20,861 bases of DNA from a virus. Position 1 is the stretch's first letter, and every line of letters starts with the position of its first letter. A program made the translations under genes and the position numbers. This document shows positions 841 through 16,482 of the stretch, one piece after another. The notes below the pieces were generated by a model, which saw only the letters and a list, made by a program, of their open reading frames with translations, was not told the DNA's origin and ran no database searches. The stretch spans positions 1 through 20,861 of IMG/VR virus record IMGVR_UViG_3300045119_000270, one strand, 5' to 3'.

Positions 841-3291
841 CTATGCGGACTGAGCCTGCGGTTCTGGATTTGGATTCGATACGTCGCCTGGACCTTGCTG
901 GTCGGACTTGCTTTCCTTCGGAGGTCCTTGCGACTTCTGTTGATTCTTCTGGTCAGCTTGCATCGCCTGCAATTGCATCTGCTGAGCTTGCTGCATCTGG
1001 ATGATCTGATTGTGCTCCATGAAGTGAGCACGCACGTTCATCCATGCCGCTGGATTCTGCTCTTTCGTTGCCAGTCCTACGTCACCATTCAGCCAAGCCA
1101 AGCAAACCTCAGCCTCGATGCCATGATTGTCCACTTCAGGGTCAACCGGGACAGAGGACTGGAATTGCTCCTGACCAGACATAGGATCGACGCCCATGAC
1201 CGTCGGTTGGCCCTGAAGCATCGTGGCGATTTCGTAGAGCTGCTTGTTACGCGAGTCGTCTCCGGGGATGTAGAGGTCTGGCATCCCAATGAGTTCCGCA
1301 ACGAAGCTCGCGTTCTCAGGATGCATGAGAATCTCCCCAACCTGGGGGTCCTTCATGTTGATGAGTTGCAACAGCACGTCGCGCTTCTGTGCCCAGGAGA
1401 TTGGGAAGGCCTCTGAGGTTTCTGGTTCGATTTCTCCAACAGTTCCTTGCAGCTGCGACTTACGAATCCAGACGTTGATGAAGCTATCGCCTTGATTCTT
1501 GACCATCTTCTCGTCTTCCGTCATATTATCGGCGTAAGACTTGACGGCCTTGGCCATGACTTTCGACCACCATGACTTGAGGACGGTCCAGGTGCCGGAA
1601 AGTCGCTGGAGAGCTTGTGCCCTCGACAGTTCATATTCCCTAGCAGTTCCTGAGCCGCCCTCAAGCTGCCCACCGTAGATGGTGGGGAATGTTCCTAGGA
1701 CGAACTGAGCCACTCCATCAAGCCTGTCCGCGAACATCTCGACTTCTTGAGATAGGCTGGCTGCCTTAATGTCGTGAAACCCGGCCGAGAGATTCTGTCC
1801 AGACGGTGCCTTGGCCTGATTGACCATCCCAGGTCGAGCTTCTGATTTCGAGTAGTTTTCAAAATCAAGGACAGATGGATCAGCAAACGTCTCTGGTATC
1901 CCAAACTCGATGGTCTCCAAAGTGATGTTCGCTAGCTCGTTGGTCATGTCCTGAACCGGCACGAGCGACGCGCCCTCAGGCTCGGAGTGAATATGCTCGG
2001 AAAATGGCGAAAGAGTGGCCGTCCAGTGCTCATCGAGCTTGTCCTGGACAACTTCAACGATCAAATCGTCGTTGATGATGACCATGTAGAGGCCATCGGG
2101 ATATTGCACCTTGAGCTGCTTGACAATTGCGTCGTTGAAGCCGCCGTAGTAGTTGAAAGCCCAGGGACGAAGCCACATCCTCTGGACCGTGCAGATATTC
2201 TCCTGCCATTCACCATTGTAGCGCCGATCGTTACGCGCCCAACGCTCGATTGCGTCAGTATCGTAAGATGGCTTGATGAGATGGGCAAATTCAGGGTAGG
2301 TTTCCTGAATCTTTCCGATTGGTTCCTCAGTTACGAACCGAAGATACGGTGTATCGTCGAGTTTTGAGATGTAATGGGGCACTTCGACGTGCAAAGGCCC
2401 AAAACATGCCAAGATTTCGCGAGATTTCGGCTTGTCGTCGTATCCAACGATGGTCGGGAACGTCTCCTGCTGGTCCTGACTCTCGGGTGGGAGGGTCAGA
2501 CCGCAGTTTGGACACGTCTGAGGCGGTTTTGGAGGCGCATTTGGGTCCGTTACGGTCTCTTGACCCTGGGGCGCGCCGCATGAAGGGCAGAAATAGGACC
2601 GATTAGTAACGCTTTGCTGTCCTGGGATGGGAACCTTAGTAGTTCCGAAGTCCTTCGACGTCTTTCGCTCGTTGTAAGCGAAGACAACTCCAGTATTATA
2701 GAGGAGATAGAGTGCGCGGAGGAAGAAAACGTCGGCCTGATTGTGCCGCTGTATCAGTTCAGAGATTTTGGAGTAGGCTTTCGCCGTCTCCACGTCGGAA
2801 GGGTTATCCGCATCGTCAGGGAAGAATCGGACAAAAGGAATTCCCGCAGCAATCGCAGAAATCCATGCCTGGCCATGAGCCTTGTAGATGTTGATGACCT
2901 TGGCGATAGCTTGAACATCTGTGTCCGCCTGCGGGTCCTCGAACGCCTGCGAGGAGCGGTCCTGATAGTCTCGATAGTCTCTGGCAATCGCGTCCCAATA
3001 GATGTATTGCAGGTTGTTCCAGTAGCACTCCAGCTTCTTCAGCTTCCGAACGAAAGCCTCTCGAACCGTCCGCTCCGGAACACAGAGCTTGTCCTTGATT
3101 CTCAGCAGCGCGTCGAGAACATCCTTCCCATAGACGTCCTCCGGGTCTTTCTCCTCTTGGTCTGGAGGTTCCTGCTGCTGGTCACCAACCGGCGGAGGTG
3201 CATCCCCCGGAACGATTGGAGGAGCGTCCGGTGGCAGCATTGGGTCAGGAAATGGCTGCTGCTGCGATGGGTCGATGGGAGGAGGATACAT
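841..3291 (-). CDS. Portal protein with zinc-ribbon insertion
   Basis: This 816-aa protein is the likely head-tail portal, which forms the ring at the capsid vertex through which DNA is packaged. It sits between the terminase/kinase-like genes and the scaffold-like gene, the normal place for a portal. The N-terminus (about 1-50) and C-terminus (about 740-816) are Pro/Gln-rich and probably disordered. The middle has the mixed helical layout of large portals, including a segment near residues 540-600 with Tyr-Gly-Gly and an Arg/Glu helix before paired Trp residues. Cys235, Cys238, Cys260 and Cys263 form two CxxC pairs, an apparent zinc ribbon within the body. The ATG follows the previous stop by one base and has only a weak ribosome site, so translation is probably coupled. 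Confidence 0.85.
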   Translation of the reverse strand: MYPPPIDPSQQQPFPDPMLPPDAPPIVPGDAPPPVGDQQQEPPDQEEKDPEDVYGKDVLDALLRIKDKLCVPERTVREAFVRKLKKLECYWNNLQYIYWDAIARDYRDYQDRSSQAFEDPQADTDVQAIAKVINIYKAHGQAWISAIAAGIPFVRFFPDDADNPSDVETAKAYSKISELIQRHNQADVFFLRALYLLYNTGVVFAYNERKTSKDFGTTKVPIPGQQSVTNRSYFCPSCGAPQGQETVTDPNAPPKPPQTCPNCGLTLPPESQDQQETFPTIVGYDDKPKSREILACFGPLHVEVPHYISKLDDTPYLRFVTEEPIGKIQETYPEFAHLIKPSYDTDAIERWARNDRRYNGEWQENICTVQRMWLRPWAFNYYGGFNDAIVKQLKVQYPDGLYMVIINDDLIVEVVQDKLDEHWTATLSPFSEHIHSEPEGASLVPVQDMTNELANITLETIEFGIPETFADPSVLDFENYSKSEARPGMVNQAKAPSGQNLSAGFHDIKAASLSQEVEMFADRLDGVAQFVLGTFPTIYGGQLEGGSGTAREYELSRAQALQRLSGTWTVLKSWWSKVMAKAVKSYADNMTEDEKMVKNQGDSFINVWIRKSQLQGTVGEIEPETSEAFPISWAQKRDVLLQLINMKDPQVGEILMHPENASFVAELIGMPDLYIPGDDSRNKQLYEIATMLQGQPTVMGVDPMSGQEQFQSSVPVDPEVDNHGIEAEVCLAWLNGDVGLATKEQNPAAWMNVRAHFMEHNQIIQMQQAQQMQLQAMQADQKNQQKSQGPPKESKSDQQGPGDVSNPNPEPQAQSA

Positions 3292-4681: not shown

Positions 4682-4994
4682 TGTCTACTTTATCGGCCTG
4701 TCTTACCCTTTCTTCCCACGCTTCTCTCTCAATTTTCGCAGCCTTTCTTGCAAACTTTTCTTCGAGCTCGGCTTGTTTACGACTCCAGGGGACTCGACTC
4801 TTCCTAATCGAGCCCTCAAATTCTTTGATCGGACCTCGTATCTCGTGTTTGGGGGCATTTCGCTCTACTTCTGCGTTGAGAAAGTCCCTCAACATCTCTA
4901 CTTCTTCTTCGAGAACTGAGATTGTGACCTTTCGAGCGTTGCAAGCGTCACATTCATTTGTTCGCAGACTGAACAAATTAGCGAAGAAGCCCAC
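4650..4994 (-). CDS. Small coiled-coil protein with CxxC, unknown function
   Basis: This 114-aa protein starts at a GTG (4994) with GGAGG four bases upstream and overlaps the end of the terminase gene by 17 bp. It begins with a short hydrophobic segment (FFANLFSL), followed by a CDAC pair and then two long charged helices (about 27-45 and 70-100) that should form coiled coils. Small proteins of this layout are often found between terminase and portal in podovirus-like genomes, but I do not recognise a named family. Translational coupling to the terminase suggests a role in packaging or head assembly. The function is unknown. Confidence 0.75.
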   Translation of the reverse strand: MGFFANLFSLRTNECDACNARKVTISVLEEEVEMLRDFLNAEVERNAPKHEIRGPIKEFEGSIRKSRVPWSRKQAELEEKFARKAAKIEREAWEERVRQADKVDNANKSSTTES

Positions 4995-6603
4995 GGAACC
5001 TCCGATGCCTCTGAACAGATGTCACCGTCTTTGCTTTCGACTCCAGATGCTCCATCTGTCGGTGCAATCTGGTCCAGTCTTGCGTCTCGGCGAAGGATTT
5101 CATGATTCCACCAAGAGCCTGCATTTTCTGGTCTCGACTCCAGACCAGTCGAATGTATCTGTCAACCTCTTTTAGCAGGTAACGGCCACCATCGTAGGGG
5201 TCATCACCCTGGAATTCGGCTACATCCTCGACCACTTCGCCATCTTTGTTGTCGTAAATGCAGATGGGTATGGTCTTGATGAACTCCTTGCACGTATCGA
5301 ACACCTGAAGTCTCGGAAGATTCGTCTCTGGAGGCTCAGGAGTAAACACATCCTGATATTTCTTCAGAGCGTCTGTTCCGAAGTTCCGGTATATGTATTG
5401 CGCCCTCTCGTCCGAGTATCCATCTGCAGGCATATACTTCGGTGGTTTCGGCATCCACCGAAGGAATGAGTGCATGAGCATCTTCCCACCTAGACGGTCA
5501 TTGTCGGCTTGTGCGGGTCTGAAGCCTGATGCTGCTGTGAACTGCTCGGCGATTGTGAGCTTGTCGCCCCGATGATTCCAAGCAGACGGGTCCAATACGA
5601 CCGAGTGAATCTCGTGTCGTTCGTGCTGAGAGAGTCTGGCAACGTCGGCTCCCCATACTTCGATGTTTTGCTTGTCCTTAGCGTATTCCCGATAGAGGAA
5701 AACACGCGAGTCAGGAGCGACCGCAGCCCAGCCAGCCCATGTCTTTGCGGTGTAGCCCCAATCGATGCCGAGAATTCGTGGCCACCAATCGGGGATATCG
5801 AAGGGTTGTACGACGTGGACAGCATTGGCTGGTTCTGTAGCTCGACGGAAGTCTCTCCACTCTGAGAAGACCTGTCCGGAAAATACATACCAGTCGCCAT
5901 CTTTCTTGGCGCGGCGCTCGGCCTCTGGAAGTATTTCGAGGCGCCATGCGTATCCGGGGTCGGCCTCGTTGAGATAGGGATTGTCGTCGAGTTTCGCCGG
6001 GATAAAGATGCGCGAAGTTCGACTTGCGCGGTCGAAAATGATCTTGTAGCCATCACGTGCCGGGTCCACAAATCGTTCTCTGACCCAGACGTGGCCTTGG
6101 TTGCCTGGATTGCTTGCAGATCGTACAACAGGGGGTAGGCTCGGTTCGGAACTACGGACGCGGGATGTGACAAAGGAGTAGACGAACCACTTGAATGAAG
6201 TAAGCTCGTCGAACGCCGCGTAATGATACTCCGTAGTGTCATGGCGTCTAGCGTGCTTTTCCTTTTCGAGGTAGCTCGCCCTGATTACCGCGCCGCTCGG
6301 AAACTTCCAGTAGTGCTTCGCCTCGTTGAAGACTGCTCCTACTAACTTGTAGAAGCGGTCCGCACGAGGCATGAGACTTTCTTCAAGCTGAGGAAAAGTC
6401 TCGCGAAATAAGATGCCGTGAAACTTCGGGTGCAGGTGCCAGCCTCTGAGGATTGGGAGCATTATGAGAAGCTCCGATTTCCCTCCTCCCGCGGCACCTC
6501 CGTATAAAGCCTCGAAAATCGAATCCGGAATCTCGAGAAACTTTCTCTGTTTCTCGTGCGGCTTCCAAATCTGCGTGAAACGGTCGACGACTTGGATACC
6601 CAT
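4978..6603 (-). CDS. terL: Terminase large subunit (packaging ATPase/nuclease)
   Basis: This 541-aa enzyme pumps DNA into the procapsid and cuts the concatemer. The ATPase part has a Walker A GGAAGGGKS at 35-43, Walker B AAFDE at 129-133 (Asp132, Glu133) and an ASN coupling motif at 163-165. The nuclease part has the RNase H-like acidic residues Asp281 in GIDWG, Asp338 in VVLDPS and the DDPYDGGRY cluster at 468-474. The opening WKPHEKQRKFL is the usual adenine-pocket region, so the N-terminus is intact, and the length is normal. Only the ATG at 6603 can start it: an in-frame TAG lies 15 bases upstream, no Shine-Dalgarno is seen, and a U-rich stretch plus a GC hairpin come directly before it. 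Confidence 0.97.
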   Translation of the reverse strand: MGIQVVDRFTQIWKPHEKQRKFLEIPDSIFEALYGGAAGGGKSELLIMLPILRGWHLHPKFHGILFRETFPQLEESLMPRADRFYKLVGAVFNEAKHYWKFPSGAVIRASYLEKEKHARRHDTTEYHYAAFDELTSFKWFVYSFVTSRVRSSEPSLPPVVRSASNPGNQGHVWVRERFVDPARDGYKIIFDRASRTSRIFIPAKLDDNPYLNEADPGYAWRLEILPEAERRAKKDGDWYVFSGQVFSEWRDFRRATEPANAVHVVQPFDIPDWWPRILGIDWGYTAKTWAGWAAVAPDSRVFLYREYAKDKQNIEVWGADVARLSQHERHEIHSVVLDPSAWNHRGDKLTIAEQFTAASGFRPAQADNDRLGGKMLMHSFLRWMPKPPKYMPADGYSDERAQYIYRNFGTDALKKYQDVFTPEPPETNLPRLQVFDTCKEFIKTIPICIYDNKDGEVVEDVAEFQGDDPYDGGRYLLKEVDRYIRLVWSRDQKMQALGGIMKSFAETQDWTRLHRQMEHLESKAKTVTSVQRHRRFRGLLR

Positions 6604-6612
6604 GAGAAAAGA

Positions 6613-6656
6613 AGGGGGCTACTGAGGCGTCATCCCGGTCGGAATCGTAGCCCCCT
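6613..6656 (-). terminator. Terminator-like hairpin directly before terL
   Basis: A perfect 10-bp inverted repeat (AGGGGGCTAC at 6613-6622, its complement at 6647-6656) with a 24-nt loop is followed on the minus strand by TCTTTTCTC and then the terL ATG. A second small hairpin (5-bp arms, 6659-6673) overlaps the stop of the upstream gene. By form this is a rho-independent terminator, although the T-run is interrupted by C and the loop is long. It could instead be a partial attenuator or RNA processing site that sets terL expression. Confidence 0.6.
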
Positions 6657-6666
6657 CTGGAGTTAC

Positions 6667-7233
6667 CTACTCCAGCTTCTTCGGCGGTGCAGGAGGAGCC
6701 GGCGCGTGCTGCGTGGCCACCTTCCGCTCCTCCGCCGACTTCTGACCGATGGTGTAGAACACCTTGTCCCTGAAGGACAGCGTCGTCGGCTTGTCTCGCC
6801 CCTCGTTCGCTGCCTTCGCCAGAATCGCGTTGTCGAGAGCCTCGCCGGTCAGTCTCTCGTCTCCGGGATCGACTGCTCCGGTGATGAGCAGAAGCTCTGC
6901 CGTCTCGGGCGGAGGAATCACGATGCCAAGCGCCTCGGCCAGGTTCGACGGAAGCACGTATTTCCCGCCGTCCGACAGCTCGTAGATACCGTCGCCCCCA
7001 AGAGCCTTGAACAGGCCGCGGCTCTCGATGTCCTCGATGGCGATCGGTCCACCGTAGCCGAGGAACTCACGTGAGTTGACGACCGTGCACTGCTGCGTGG
7101 GGAGGACTTCCTTGCCGATGCTGACAACTCCCTCGGCGTTCGCCTTCAGGTCCTTCAGCTCGATTGCCTTCTCCACGATTGGCTTCGCGGGAGGCGGGGT
7201 TGCCATCGTTGGTGCTGGTGTCGCTGTTGCCAT
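6667..7233 (-). CDS. Unassigned 188-aa phage protein
   Basis: The start ATG at 7233 has AGGAG seven bases upstream, and the gene begins 9 bases after the stop of the next upstream gene. Both ends are Ala/Pro/Thr-rich and probably disordered (about 1-17 and 172-188). The middle (about 20-170) is a compact mixed region with VLPTQQCTVVNSREF near 43-57 and a GGKYVLPSNLAEALGI segment near 89-104. I do not recognise a family. Its place in the late operon, just before the terminase, suggests a virion or assembly protein. The terminator-like hairpin lies just after its stop. Confidence 0.8.
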   Translation of the reverse strand: MATATPAPTMATPPPAKPIVEKAIELKDLKANAEGVVSIGKEVLPTQQCTVVNSREFLGYGGPIAIEDIESRGLFKALGGDGIYELSDGGKYVLPSNLAEALGIVIPPPETAELLLITGAVDPGDERLTGEALDNAILAKAANEGRDKPTTLSFRDKVFYTIGQKSAEERKVATQHAPAPPAPPKKLE

Positions 7234-7788: not shown

Positions 7789-8574
7789 CTACAACGAGAA
7801 TTTCCTGCGCGCCGCACCGATCATGCCGAGAAGTCCAGAACCGAGAAGAATCATCGAACCCGGCTCCGGAGTCGGGAAGCTCTGCGGATTCGGACTGCAT
7901 CCAACGCACGGTGGCGTAGGACCGTCACGGAAGGCCCATTCCTCGAACGTGCCTTGTGACTCGTAGCCAGTCTCGTGTCCGAACGAGGTATACATGTAGA
8001 AGTAAGTCCCAGGGTTCGCCCCAAACACGCTGGTAGGCACGTAGAAGAACAGGTCGCTGTTCCCATTGCCACCACCGAACAGGTCGTAGTCGAGATGCAC
8101 TGACCCGTTCATCGTGTAGACCGGACTAGTCGGGCATCCATCGGCTTGCACCAGAGATGCGGTGTTACTGGTGCAGAGTTCGATGCGATCAAGCGTCAAC
8201 AGATTCATGTCGTTGCCGCTCGGTTCGCCGAGGTCGAGCATGAACTCGTAGTAGTTCGTGCCGCCGATGTTGAAGATGTTGTCGAGATCAGAGAACAGGA
8301 CATCGTGCGTCCAGATGCCGCCAATCTCATCGTTCAGAAAATCCTGCGACGGCGCACCGGTATTGTGACCATCCTCCGTCGGCTTCTGGTGGATACGAAC
8401 AAAGGGATTGAACACACCGGTGCCAGAGGGCTGAACTGAAACGGTCGAGAAGATTGCCCCACTGTATACCGCCCCTGTGCAGCCAGACTGACAGTTGAGC
8501 GGGATTGGTGTAGCCATCACCGAGGGCGCGGCAAAGAGTAGTGCAAGCAGGCTAAGCTGGGGAACCTTTTTCAT
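7789..8574 (-). CDS. PEP-CTERM secreted protein (beta-sandwich type)
   Basis: The 261-aa product has a Sec signal peptide (about 1-21, ending VMA before TPIP) and a full C-terminal PEP-CTERM signal: PTPEPGS, a hydrophobic helix (LLGSGLLGMIGA) and a basic end ARRKFSL. In bacteria this tail directs proteins to exosortase (EpsH/Xrt) for cleavage and surface or exopolysaccharide attachment. The body matches a known layout of bacterial PEP-CTERM proteins: NPFVRI near 56, WTHDVL near 88, YEFMLDLGEP near 108 and FEEWAF near 215. It starts at 8574 with AGGAG seven bases upstream. No exosortase gene is seen here, so host machinery must process it. Presence in a phage late operon is unusual and suggests acquisition from a host. 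Confidence 0.9.
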   Translation of the reverse strand: MKKVPQLSLLALLFAAPSVMATPIPLNCQSGCTGAVYSGAIFSTVSVQPSGTGVFNPFVRIHQKPTEDGHNTGAPSQDFLNDEIGGIWTHDVLFSDLDNIFNIGGTNYYEFMLDLGEPSGNDMNLLTLDRIELCTSNTASLVQADGCPTSPVYTMNGSVHLDYDLFGGGNGNSDLFFYVPTSVFGANPGTYFYMYTSFGHETGYESQGTFEEWAFRDGPTPPCVGCSPNPQSFPTPEPGSMILLGSGLLGMIGAARRKFSL

Positions 8575-8768: not shown

Positions 8769-9443
8769 TTACCGGCCGACGAAACGACGCTTGAACCGTC
8801 GAGCACCGAACATCAGTCCAGTTCCGAGGAGCACAAGGCTCGTTGGTTCTGGGACTGCTGAGATTTGTGCATCAGCTGTGCCTGTGAACGACGCATTGAA
8901 GGAGCCAATGGTCGTGTGCGACACCCCGCCGACCAGATACGTGTCGGTGTGGAACGGCGGGGTTACGTTACTAAGCGACAGAGAGAAGCTCTCCGGGTCG
9001 ATTAGTGCTGCCAGGTCACTCGTTAGCACCAGAGGACCGAGCAGCCCGTTGTTGCTCGTCAGGACTGAGTTGGTCCCACCGATCGTTCCAAGTTGCAGTG
9101 AGCCACCGAATGTCCCATCGAGGTAATCGAAGGTATCGGCTGCGTTGTGCAGGGAGAACGACCCAGCGAACGGCTGTGCAATCAGCGGACCGAACGCCTG
9201 AGCATCGCCGGTGCTCGTCGCGTTCAGAGTCAGCACCGCGTTCGCATCGAGCGCACCCATGAAGATCTGGGTGATGTTGACGCCAGTGTTGATGCTGATG
9301 GCCGTGGTTCCGTTGCCAAGGTCGGTGGCAACGAACTGGTTCGTCGCTGTGTTCCCGAACGAGGTGATGGTCGTCGCCTTCGCCGCTGGAACTACGAGCA
9401 GAGCAAGGCTGAGGAGCAGGGGAAGAACTCGGGCTGGTTTCAT
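8769..9443 (-). CDS. PEP-CTERM secreted protein
   Basis: The 224-aa product has a Sec signal peptide (about 1-23, ending AKA before TTIT), a Ser/Thr/Asn/Gly-rich body predicted to be beta-rich and almost free of Cys, and a C-terminal PEP-CTERM signal: VPEPTS, hydrophobic LVLLGTGLMFGA, then the basic RRFKRR. It starts at 9443 with AGGAG seven bases upstream. The body shows no similarity I can name and is clearly different from the other PEP-CTERM protein here, so the two are not a recent duplication. It is expected to be exported and processed by a host exosortase and to sit on the cell surface or in the extracellular matrix. Confidence 0.88.
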   Translation of the reverse strand: MKPARVLPLLLSLALLVVPAAKATTITSFGNTATNQFVATDLGNGTTAISINTGVNITQIFMGALDANAVLTLNATSTGDAQAFGPLIAQPFAGSFSLHNAADTFDYLDGTFGGSLQLGTIGGTNSVLTSNNGLLGPLVLTSDLAALIDPESFSLSLSNVTPPFHTDTYLVGGVSHTTIGSFNASFTGTADAQISAVPEPTSLVLLGTGLMFGARRFKRRFVGR

Positions 9444-12065: not shown

Positions 12066-12428
12066 ATGCAGACTACCAAAGTGAAGCTCGAAATCCCCGT
12101 CGACGGCAAGGCCGCTTACGAGCACAACTACGAGAAGCTGGTCGCGGAAACCGTCGACGACGCGCGGACCATCAGCAAGGGTGTCGTGGTCGGACTCCCG
12201 GCGGACGAGCAGGCGGCGGCGGCTGCGGCGTATCTGGTCAAGGCCTTCAACTATGGCCACGACCTGCTGGTCCGCGGTGTGGAACGCGCCAAGGGAAACC
12301 GTGCCGCGCAGGGACCGGCGAAGGAGATCCAGAAGGGCGTGGACGCGCTGGTGGCTTCAGGGTTCGGCCCGGACGAGGCCCGCGCCATGATTCTCGCACA
12401 GCGCGAGGCGAAGGGACTCCCGGTCTAA
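12066..12428 (+). CDS. Unassigned 120-aa first gene of rightward operon
   Basis: The gene follows P-R1 and has GAGAGAG four bases before the ATG. The product is Ala-rich and largely helical after a short beta-like start (TTKVKLEIPVDG). Residues 86-120 (KEIQKGVDALVASGFGPDEARAMI) resemble a small three-helix, UBA-like tail, but I do not recognise a family. The codon pattern is more GC-rich than in the downstream genes. A strong terminator follows immediately, so it is transcribed as a high-level single gene, which is typical of an early phage protein made right after infection. Confidence 0.8.
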   Translation: MQTTKVKLEIPVDGKAAYEHNYEKLVAETVDDARTISKGVVVGLPADEQAAAAAAYLVKAFNYGHDLLVRGVERAKGNRAAQGPAKEIQKGVDALVASGFGPDEARAMILAQREAKGLPV

Positions 12429-12436
12429 CGGAATCC

Positions 12437-12470
12437 GGGGGAGGGTCGGATGCCCTCCCCCACTTTTCGT
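12437..12470 (+). terminator. Rho-independent terminator
   Basis: A 9-bp GC-rich stem (GGGGGAGGG at 12,437-12,445 with its complement at 12,453-12,461), a 7-nt loop, and ACTTTTCG after it. It closes the first rightward gene. Confidence 0.85.
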
Positions 12471-12503
12471 CCCATCCAACCATACCGTCCAAGGAGTCAA
12501 CGA

Positions 12504-12692
12504 ATGGCACAGAGACCGTGCGACGAGCTGATCAAGGTCCACGTGACCGAGGACCAGCTCCTCGAATTAGACCGGCTAGTCACCGTGCGTATCAATCAGA
12601 TACTGGCCCTGCGTCCAATCCAGATGCAGCTGGCCGCTGAACTACAGATGCTCTACAACCTCAAGACCGAGCTGGAGCAGGCAGGAACGTAA
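12504..12692 (+). CDS. 62-aa helical protein, unknown
   Basis: The start ATG at 12,504 has AAGGAG seven bases upstream; an earlier in-frame ATG lies within the terminator and is not used. The short product begins with a beta-like DELIKVHVTE and continues as amphipathic helices with regular Leu spacing (LLELDRLVTVRINQI, LQMLYNLKTELEQ), so it probably forms a dimer or coiled coil. No family is recognised. It is placed between two terminators, which suggests read-through or a promoter I could not identify. Confidence 0.75.
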   Translation: MAQRPCDELIKVHVTEDQLLELDRLVTVRINQILALRPIQMQLAAELQMLYNLKTELEQAGT

Positions 12693-12698
12693 CACCAC

Positions 12699-12722
12699 GA
12701 GGGGCACCGCGCCCCTCTTTTT
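12699..12722 (+). terminator. Rho-independent terminator
   Basis: Perfect 7-bp stem GAGGGGC/GCCCCTC (12,699-12,705 and 12,711-12,717), a 5-nt loop and TTTTT. It lies 7 bases after the stop of the 62-aa gene. Confidence 0.88.
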
Positions 12723-12738
12723 CATTTCTGAGGATACC

Positions 12739-12822
12739 GTGTCACACCAGACCATCTACCTTCTCACTTGCGCGTTTCTCACGTGTGCGTTCCTGCTCGA
12801 CATCTTCTGCCCTGAGGTATAG
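12739..12822 (+). CDS. 27-aa hydrophobic microprotein
   Basis: A GTG at 12,739 has GAGG five bases upstream and opens a 27-codon frame ending at TAG 12,820-12,822. Most of the peptide is one hydrophobic span with three Cys (TIYLLTCAFLTCAFLLDIFC), so it is probably membrane-inserted. The next gene starts 3 bases after its stop. Short length keeps confidence modest. No function can be assigned. Confidence 0.5.
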   Translation: MSHQTIYLLTCAFLTCAFLLDIFCPEV

Positions 12823-12825
12823 ACC

Positions 12826-13011
12826 GTGCACAGCTTCACCATTTTCGTCTACAACGACTACCGCTACGCTGGCGATGGCGTAGACTACGTGTTCTCCATG
12901 ACCGTGTGGGTCAGCACCTTGGACATTGCCATTGAGCGTGTCCGCAACATGGTCGGACCGGGCCACCTGGTAACAGACCTCGACCTCTCGGGAGCGAACT
13001 CGGACATTTAG
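12826..13011 (+). CDS. 61-aa unknown protein
   Basis: The frame starts at a GTG (12,826) with GAGG eight bases upstream, inside the end of the microprotein gene. The product begins with a beta-like HSFTIFVYNDYRY, a second strand DYVFSMTVWVS and a helix TLDIAIERVRNMV, a small alpha-beta layout. No family is recognised. An antisense frame of 193 codons covers this stretch but has no ribosome site and crosses the terminator side, so the plus-strand reading is preferred. It is the last gene before the origin-like region. Confidence 0.7.
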   Translation: MHSFTIFVYNDYRYAGDGVDYVFSMTVWVSTLDIAIERVRNMVGPGHLVTDLDLSGANSDI

Positions 13012-13236
13012 TTCGCGCTCTGAACATTCTTGTCCGTGCCAGCTCCGACAGGGGCATCCGGGTTGATACGTGCCGGTTAGATGCCGCGCCGATTCCCCTG
13101 ATGCCCCTTGAACATTTTGTGCGCCGCTCTGATCAATTATCGGTCCGAGCCTGGCACTCCCGATCGCCGCCGCGCCGAAATTGATCACAAGGCCGCTGAT
13201 CATTTCGATAGGCTCGACAAGCGGTATTTGACGTGC

Positions 13237-13291
13237 ATGTCTCGGGTATCTGTCGTGTATCTGTGGGGTATGTCTCGGGTATGTCTGGGGT
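13237..13291 (+). repeat. Left iteron array, five 11-bp units
   Basis: Five tandem units with exact 11-bp period, consensus AT(G/C)T(C/G)T(C/G)GGGT. Units one and four are identical (ATGTCTCGGGT). An 11-bp period places each copy on the same face of the helix. Confidence 0.85.
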
Positions 13292-13432
13292 ATCTTTTTG
13301 ATCGCTAACCCTTTCAGGATCAATGAGTTAGCGCGATCCCCCTCCCTCTCCCCTCACCTTTTTAGGGCCGACTACCCCCACCCGTCCGAGGTCCGTTCAG
13401 CTCTTGTCGGGCACTTTTTCTTCCTTGTAGTA

Positions 13433-13456
13433 TGTATTTTTTATATATATATAAAG
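13433..13456. other. AT-rich core with alternating TA run
   Basis: A T-run followed by TATATATATATAAA, the lowest-stability stretch of the window. It lies close to the midpoint between the two iteron arrays and is the natural place for strand opening. Confidence 0.6.
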
Positions 13457-13580
13457 GAATAGAACACTCCGACATGAAATTTTTTCCGAGGGGCACCCGG
13501 CCTCCCCATTTTAGGGTAGAGGTGGGGGTGGGGGGTCTCGCTAAGTCCAATAGAATCAACGACTTACGGGCAAAAAACTA

Positions 13581-13646
13581 TCACGAGACTTACCCGAGAG
13601 ATACCCGAGAGATGCCCCAGACTAGCACGAGAGATACACCGCAGAG
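13581..13646 (-). repeat. Right iteron array, six 11-bp units, inverted
   Basis: Six 11-bp units that on the minus strand read like ATCTCTCGGGT; two adjacent copies (13,592-13,613) are identical, and the outer copies are degenerate. They match the left array in inverse orientation. Confidence 0.8.
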
Positions 13647-13724
13647 TCAGGGCTATCTTCGCTTGGGTTTCGCTTTCGCTAGTCATTTCGCTATCTCGAC
13701 GAGAATCGACCGCCCTCAGAAAAG

Positions 13725-13753
13725 TTGACATCCGGCGCAAAGTGTGCTATCAT
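13725..13753 (+). promoter_or_regulatory. Rightward promoter P-R2
   Basis: TTGACA (13,725-13,730), a 17-bp spacer and TATCAT (13,748-13,753) preceded by TGC, an extended -10 sigma70 promoter. It drives the gene run starting at 13,817. Confidence 0.88.
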
Positions 13754-13816
13754 ACTGGAACGCGAAGCGTGTCGGGCATTTCCGCCCACCTCGGATTCGC
13801 GTATGGGAGAGCAGCA

Positions 13817-15452: not shown

Positions 15453-15562
15453 TGCTCCGATGTCCGAAGTGCAAGCGATATTTGCCAGTCTGCACGTGCA
15501 AGGCGAAGATTATTGTTCAACGGTTGAACAATAGCGATAACAGCCCGAGAGGAACTGTCTAG
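15452..15562 (+). CDS. 36-aa zinc-ribbon microprotein
   Basis: The ATG overlaps the previous stop as TAATG. The peptide has CPKC and CTC spaced by eight residues, a minimal zinc ribbon, followed by basic and polar residues. Its last third contains a 23-bp DNA palindrome, so the coding sequence here may also be constrained as a binding site. Short length and lack of its own strong ribosome site keep confidence moderate. Confidence 0.6.
   Translation: MLRCPKCKRYLPVCTCKAKIIVQRLNNSDNSPRGTV
15511..15533. promoter_or_regulatory. Perfect 23-bp palindrome, operator candidate
   Basis: TATTGTTCAAC and its exact complement flank a single G. The core is TGTTCA-N5-TGAACA, the same half-sites and spacing as the site at 11,662-11,678. 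It lies within the 36-aa gene, about 40 bases before the next start. Confidence 0.5.
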
Positions 15563-15573
15563 GAGATAGCGAT

Positions 15574-16482
15574 ATGGCACAGAGATTCTGCGAAGTGTGC
15601 AACGATCCACTACCGCTTGAGACCGAGGAATCCATGTGTGATTCCTGTCTTGAGGTTGTGGAACTTCAGGTGGCAGAGATAAACGAGGCCGAGGAATGCG
15701 AGACACCTGCCAGTGTGGTGGAGCCATCATCGAACGAAACGCCCGCCGAGACAAGAACCGAGGACAACAGGAGCACATCAGAGAACGCCGCTGTTCTCGT
15801 TGCCACCGTCGCTTCGGAGTTAGGAAACCTGGACTTGGGGATGGAGGAGAGCCTGAGTCCAGCGAACCCACAACCGAAGAAACCAGCTCCAAGCCTCGCG
15901 TGTGACTCCTGTGGAGTCCTGCAATACGAACTGAAGAAGTTCAAGGCACCCACAACGAGCAACACGCTGGACCTCTGCGACAAGTGCTATGAGGGCGAGA
16001 TGGCCCTCGTAGTTCATGCTGAGGATCCGATGCAGGGCAAGGTAGTTCATCCTGATGAGAGCGAGCGCGAAGAGATCATCACGATGGACGTCGAGGATGC
16101 CGAACTCTACAATGCAGAGGTTCGTATCAGCATGGAGTCGCCAATCGAGGAAGTCTACGCACGCATCGCACTCCTCGAAGGCAAGTTGCAGCGTGCGAAG
16201 CTGCTCCTGAAGGCCAGCCGAACGACACTCTTCGTGCGCATCGAGCACATGAAGTCTGCCGAGCGCGAGGCCGAATACAAGAGACTCAACGAGCGTGACG
16301 CGAAGAAGCGGCGTCGAGTGCAGCCTGTGAGCGCGGATGGCACGACGCCAGCACCGAAGCGTTCAGTCTCCCGCGCACCGAAGCGGTCCAAGGCTCAGCA
16401 GTTCCGCGACTCAATGCTCGCCAACGGATTCAGCGAAGAGTGGATTGCCGAGCAAATCAAGAAGCGAGGCATCGAGGGCTAA
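15574..16482 (+). CDS. Multi-Cys, basic-tailed protein, unknown
   Basis: AGGAG eight bases before the ATG supports this start. The 302-aa frame has an N-terminal zinc ribbon (CEVC near 6-9 and CDSC near 22-25), a low-complexity Ser/Thr/Glu-rich stretch (about 40-100), a second ribbon (CDSCG near 109 and CDKC near 134), a charged coiled region with LLEGKLQRAKLLLKASR near 198-215, and a very basic KKRRRVQP part. It ends in a small helix-turn-helix-like GFSEEWIAEQIKKRG. No named family is recognised; DNA or RNA contact is likely. The low-complexity part coincides with a second good zinc-ribbon frame, so this stretch is either overprinted or marks compensating frameshifts. Confidence 0.75.
   Translation: MAQRFCEVCNDPLPLETEESMCDSCLEVVELQVAEINEAEECETPASVVEPSSNETPAETRTEDNRSTSENAAVLVATVASELGNLDLGMEESLSPANPQPKKPAPSLACDSCGVLQYELKKFKAPTTSNTLDLCDKCYEGEMALVVHAEDPMQGKVVHPDESEREEIITMDVEDAELYNAEVRISMESPIEEVYARIALLEGKLQRAKLLLKASRTTLFVRIEHMKSAEREAEYKRLNERDAKKRRRVQPVSADGTTPAPKRSVSRAPKRSKAQQFRDSMLANGFSEEWIAEQIKKRGIEG
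15696..15905 (+). CDS. Nested zinc-ribbon frame inside the 302-aa gene
   Basis: In the +2 frame relative to the surrounding gene, an ATG with GAGG seven bases upstream opens 69 codons. It reads CQCGG, a basic helix with paired Arg, then RRCSRCHRRFGV, which is the layout of an NrdR-like or phage zinc ribbon (CxC...CxxC followed by Arg-Phe). The remaining tail is Glu/Ser/Pro-rich. The matching part of the surrounding frame is low-complexity, so this frame may be the one under selection here. It could be a separate overlapping gene or the product of a frameshift. Confidence 0.45.
   Translation: MRDTCQCGGAIIERNARRDKNRGQQEHIRERRCSRCHRRFGVRKPGLGDGGEPESSEPTTEETSSKPRV

Follow-up and report, generated by a model that had tools for sequence, protein, structure and literature searches.

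The origin of phage lambda consists of direct repeats that adjoin an AT-rich unwinding element, and lies in or beside the replication module. The same arrangement is found in oriL and oriR of phage SPP1 (PMC6316719). In oriS of herpes simplex virus, initiator boxes in inverse orientation flank an AT-rich spacer, and the protein that binds them is an SF2 helicase (PMC12543377). Repeats of 11 bp also occur in parC, the partition site of plasmid R1; there, ten direct repeats lie on either side of a promoter, and R1 ParR requires two 11-bp repeats (PMC9426499 and its reference list).

The locus described here lies in a 20,861-bp IMG/VR fragment of an uncultivated bacterial virus (phage), referred to below, at its full length, as the window. 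It is a soil or sediment phage with a genome of roughly 48 kb; the contig ends of one relative (G004) join in frame, which makes its map a circle of 48,151 bp with an intact SNF2 frame. In the window, the structural genes, namely terminase (4978-6603) and portal (841-3291), are transcribed leftward, and the early genes run rightward from 13.8 kb. Between the latter and two small plus-strand genes (12066 and 12450), which precede a terminator-like hairpin, about 1.1 kb carries no convincing gene and holds two arrays of 11-bp repeats. The features of this region are as follows.

12699..12717, plus strand: terminator-like hairpin, ending the small plus-strand operon 12066-12692
About 12700-13800: non-coding region enclosing both arrays, larger than the stretch first described
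13108..13207, leftward of the left array: block of TGAACA / TGATCA inverted repeats, its position kept in clades A and B (defined below)
13223..13299, plus strand: left array, seven 11-bp units in strict register, consensus GGTAT[C/G]T[C/G]TCG
13223, plus strand: left unit 1, GGTATTTGACG
13234, plus strand: left unit 2, TGCATGTCTCG
13245, plus strand: left unit 3, GGTATCTGTCG
13256, plus strand: left unit 4, TGTATCTGTGG
13267, plus strand: left unit 5, GGTATGTCTCG
13278, plus strand: left unit 6, GGTATGTCTGG
13289, plus strand: left unit 7, GGTATCTTTTT
13318..13330, plus strand: IHF-like motif GATCAATGAGTTA, one mismatch to WATCAANNNNTTR
13338..13358, unstranded: C-tract between left array and core, plus strand pyrimidine-rich
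13424..13463, unstranded: AT core with TATATATATATA, the contig's weakest 40-bp duplex and a candidate DNA-unwinding element
13514..13535, unstranded: G-tract between core and right array, plus strand purine-rich
13554..13566, plus strand: IHF-like motif AATCAACGACTTA, the window's only exact match to WATCAANNNNTTR
13580..13645, minus strand: right array, six 11-bp units in strict register, opposite in orientation to the left array
13580, inverted: right unit 1, ATCACGAGACT
13591 and 13602, inverted: right units 2 and 3, TACCCGAGAGA in both
13613, inverted: right unit 4, TGCCCCAGACT
13624, inverted: right unit 5, AGCACGAGAGA
13635, inverted: right unit 6, TACACCGCAGA
13725..13753, plus strand: sigma-70-type promoter TTGACA-17-TATCAT with extended -10, reading into the early operon

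The locus is like the SPP1 and lambda origins in its direct repeats, its AT-rich element and its association with a replication module; it differs in having two inverted arrays around one core, in being intergenic and in lacking a recognised initiator gene. As in herpes simplex virus oriS, inverted sites flank an AT spacer, and the phages here have a gene for an SNF2-family (SF2) protein; oriS, however, has two or three single boxes rather than long arrays and belongs to an unrelated virus. By analogy, the likeness would lie in the working mode, not in homology, and the phage SNF2 protein conceivably binds here. R1 parC likewise has its 11-bp repeats in two groups, one on each side of a central segment, but there the repeats are direct, the flanked segment is a promoter and a gene for an actin-like ATPase adjoins, whereas the window's arrays are inverted. 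No description of an array-core-array layout in phages was found in the open-access library searched.

Self-matching at a lag of 11 reaches 42/55 in the left array and 37/55 in the right array, whereas 300 shuffles of the whole window that preserved dinucleotides gave at most 30 at that lag; when any lag from 7 to 24 was allowed, 100 shuffles peaked at 34. The arrays reported in the earlier note are therefore real. Its six inverted units on the right stand; its five on the left, counted from 13237, become seven when the array is followed from 13223. The midpoint it gave (13,441) agrees with the least stable 40 bp, which centre at about 13444, and the C-rich and G-rich stretches that it placed left and right of the core coincide with the two tracts listed above. 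The units are imperfect, with GGTAT as their firm part: two of those in the window's right array are strong and four degenerate, and the outer units, those of the left array included, are degenerate in the window and clearer in relatives. Short direct repeats at helical spacing, as expected of an iteron origin, are thus present.

An iteron origin also has an adjacent AT-rich element that is easily unwound, and by computed stability this is present as well. From nearest-neighbour energies over 40-bp stretches, the window's core has a duplex stability of -39.6 kcal/mol, against -48.5 kcal/mol for the next weakest 40 bp. The core is the weakest 40 bp in every spanning contig tested (nine, near-duplicates counted), at -37.1 to -40.5 kcal/mol, with the next weakest at -45.4 or lower and a margin of about 5-10 kcal/mol per contig; the pattern is absent from G017, whose contig stops short of the core. 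IHF-like motifs lie between the core and the arrays. The consensus WATCAANNNNTTR occurs as a single copy in most contigs and adjoins an array in 8/8 contigs of clades A and B; its left position is an exact match in seven of these eight, and the position equivalent to 13554 fits the relaxed form TCAANNNNTTR in all eight. The relaxed form flanks both sides in 8/8 clade A/B contigs, although the host may lack IHF; it is absent from G012, so that both-sided motifs are found in 8/9 family contigs.

A terminase search yielded 18 loci at 83-100% protein identity. The locus is covered by the window, G003/G004, G008/G009, G005/G006, G010, G011 and G012; several of these contigs are near-duplicates, so about seven distinct genomes are represented. 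All nine non-identical family contigs across the locus carry, in order, the left array, a C-rich tract, the AT core, the G-tract and the inverted right array, followed by a sigma-70-type promoter and the early replication operon (for right arrays whose units are degenerate, the scripted count of flanking arrays is a minimum). No lag-11 array was found elsewhere in the locus-covering contigs at the threshold used. The alignment of relatives that the earlier note had called for shows conserved arrays and a variable spacer, with 264 to 303 bp between the arrays. Beyond the family, G017 (terminase 51%, polymerase about 41-43%) has four GGTAT units arrayed at the corresponding map position, its contig stopping just past this left array, before any right array. 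In G016 (terminase 49%), 11-bp arrays are absent, which means that the wider group can do without them; reading by eye shows TGTCA palindromes and tracts rich in C, in AT and in G ahead of this contig's early promoter.

The last base of the unit differs by clade. In clade A (window, G003, G009) it is G in 29/33 units (19/21 left, 10/12 right); among the units of clade B (G005, G010, G011), T holds this position in 37/42 (18/21 left, 19/21 right). This shift occurs in both arrays, which therefore follow one specificity. The co-change fits one protein that would read both arrays, and repeat homogenisation by recombination may be an alternative. In principle, the two arms, which are inverted and up to 79% complementary, could also form a large hairpin or belong to a non-coding RNA. 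Comparison across genomes, however, shows no position-by-position match between left and right units (similarity 7.2-9.0 of 11 when mirrored, 7.4-8.2 when unmirrored, with a small mirrored excess in a few genomes), which disfavours hairpin pairing, and no Rfam family matches. Arrays that co-change without such matching fit shared protein sites better than a stem, and a structural or RNA element is extremely improbable.

Since relatives keep this design, the region is probably the start of viral DNA copying: a candidate iteron-type phage replication origin in which two inverted arrays surround a DNA-unwinding element. Its genetic setting bears on this. The array locus forms the opening of the early replication operon, whose products are an SNF2-family helicase, a PD-(D/E)XK nuclease (exonuclease), a Sak4-like ATPase, a ParB_N-methyltransferase, a UDG-PolA polymerase and a DUF3987 primase-like protein. 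In G004, ParB_N is fused with an N6/N4 DNA methyltransferase (L030 7187-8482) and uracil-DNA glycosylase with DNA polymerase A (L030 9204-11726). Nearly all genes point away from the array region, to meet at a convergence point about 17-20 kb rightward of it. Cumulative GC skew, which the earlier note proposed computing, has its minimum at most about 5 kb from the array and its maximum at the gene convergence. The minimum is thus near the array, but the curve also follows gene direction, with which it is fully confounded; genes diverging from the array region predict the same curve, and the skew is therefore weak, non-decisive evidence for an origin. Neither an absence of conservation in relatives nor a skew minimum elsewhere with arrays missing from close kin, the outcomes that the earlier note took to speak against an origin, was observed, because the arrays are conserved and the minimum lies near them.

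Several further observations concern the coding regions. A PEP-CTERM C-terminal sorting signal (TIGR02595, above cut-off) is found at window positions 7789-8574 and 8769-9443 (both minus strand) and at G004 6473-7129; such proteins are unexpected in a phage and hint at an exosortase-bearing host. The late operon of G009 contains a radical SAM/SPASM-like gene (28182-29375; L034:8285-9475), whose best match, below cut-off, is the cyclophane-forming maturase AmcB. A small cysteine-rich ORF at window 15696-15905 is nested in another frame within 15574-16479; both are conserved in the family, and the former is a possible overprinted gene.

The strong sigma-70-type promoter sits about 80 bp rightward of the right array, similar TTGACA...TATAAT sequences are visible in relatives, and the early region encodes small ribbon-helix-helix (RHH)-like proteins. 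The arrays might thus be operators of an early-operon regulator, looping over the core onto the 13725 promoter. Operators do exist nearby, as judged from TGTTCA-N5-TGAACA palindromes, which are likely operators of some regulator: most relatives have one on the left side of the array and a second some 2.4-2.7 kb downstream, and the window has one at 15514. Neither array, however, overlaps the promoter, the left one being more than 400 bp upstream; a promoter scan found none inside the core; no RHH gene is common to all array-bearing genomes; and transcription control leaves the extreme weakness of the core without explanation. We regard it as rather unlikely.

RHH-like proteins, together with 11-bp repeats that form two groups on either side of a central region, would also suit a centromere-like partition site of the R1 parC kind, with ParR-type RHH proteins on the repeats flanking the core. 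Against this, the arrays are inverted rather than direct, the core has no detected promoter and ParA-type ATPase (AAA_31) is absent, with the control working. A StbA/ParM search, whose control was silent, carries no weight either way. Terminase relatives numbered 0 in 84,980 bacterial and archaeal species genomes, and PF00589 integrase matches 0 in nine records (control working; serine recombinases outside the search), which gives no hint of a prophage or plasmid phase. A partition role is accordingly very unlikely.

The lack of a PF00589 integrase in these nine records also argues against a recombination (attP-type) site. As regards a packaging or genome-end site (pac/cos), three of the 14 contigs compared (G007, G018 and G017) end +45 to +115 bp from the AT core, and some intergenic 11-bp arrays in other phages adjoin terminase genes. 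Most contigs, however, pass uninterrupted through the locus, nearly complete ones open elsewhere, and the ends of G004 close into an intact SNF2 frame; the terminase is about 6.6 kb distant. G/C tracts alone can interrupt short-read assemblies, and the contig ends beside the core perhaps reflect a G-tract breaking the assembly. Packaging or recombination is a highly improbable role for the locus.

How common such arrays are in other phages was gauged by scanning viral contigs for GGTAT four times at 11-bp spacing, which gave 112 stretches. Outside the main family loci, 82 non-redundant arrays were found, 32 of them inside ORFs of at least 120 aa; 21/30 of the array-containing ORFs scanned belong to replication-initiation, DnaD-like, replisome-organizer or primosomal families. 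With a scrambled pentamer, GTGAT, 52 non-redundant arrays were obtained, of which 11 lie in ORFs; initiators made up 5/10 of those scanned, which weakens GGTAT as a specific origin motif. As the control behaves in this way too, 11-bp arrays embedded in genes are markers of phage initiator genes irrespective of the unit; 11 not being a multiple of 3, the repeat is not explained by protein sequence. Among phage contigs L055-L162, ORF-embedded 11-bp tandem arrays lie mostly within replication-initiator genes and offer a simple means to locate phage origins. The arrays in DnaD-like, replisome-organizer and O-like genes resemble the window's in their 11-bp period, about four or more copies and, often, GGTAT; they differ in lying inside an initiator ORF, and such an initiator was not detected in the window's family. 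The window's array being intergenic, this base rate helps only in part. The 72 ORFs neighbouring intergenic arrays show no link to replication genes: terminase is the commonest family (4), with at least one replication initiation family among the matches listed. An inverted partner within 1 kb was flagged, in the pair test on fetched contigs, solely in the window's family.

The earlier note had also proposed the products of three small downstream genes as candidate initiators, and this part of its origin claim fails, whereas the origin itself remains the best-supported reading on conservation, weakest duplex and skew minimum. The 13817 product has a homologue in just one relative pair, the 14237 product in no relative, and the 13999 product is missing from the array-carrying G012 and G017. 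The RHH-like 18196 protein (model pLDDT 71, modest; RHH fold matches without significant E-values) was rejected as universal binder, being absent from the nearly complete G009. The p12066 protein is universal in clades A-C, yet tblastn did not find it in G017, and its model (pLDDT 69) offers no DNA-binding fold. No homologue of the replisome-organizer family phrog_6251 was found in these phages. No small early gene is common to all array-bearing genomes, and hence none stands out as the cognate initiator of an iteron origin. Array-bearing contigs, where they extend over the relevant part, share the SNF2 helicase, the polymerase, the primase-like protein, the Sak4-like ATPase and the ParB_N-methyltransferase; an initiator of unrecognised type may be encoded nearby.

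In the proposed mode of action, a putative protein would bind the helically phased GGTAT iterons of both arrays. Because the arrays face one another with the AT core between them, the two resulting nucleoprotein arms could strain and melt this core, perhaps with an IHF- or HU-type protein bending the arms at the flanking motifs. The DUF3987 primase/helicase-like protein and the UDG-PolA DNA polymerase would then be loaded at the melted core, and forks would depart both ways, co-directionally with nearly all genes. That the locus represents a new class of phage origin, with facing iteron arrays opened symmetrically by an initiator of novel type, conceivably the SNF2-family helicase acting as a herpesvirus-like origin-binding helicase, is a speculative and fairly unlikely extension.

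If the region is an origin, it would be a compact phage origin with dyad symmetry, amenable to cloning and testing. It would belong to a lineage without a cultured representative here and without a recognisable initiator, and its repeats would offer a route to that initiator via binding assays.
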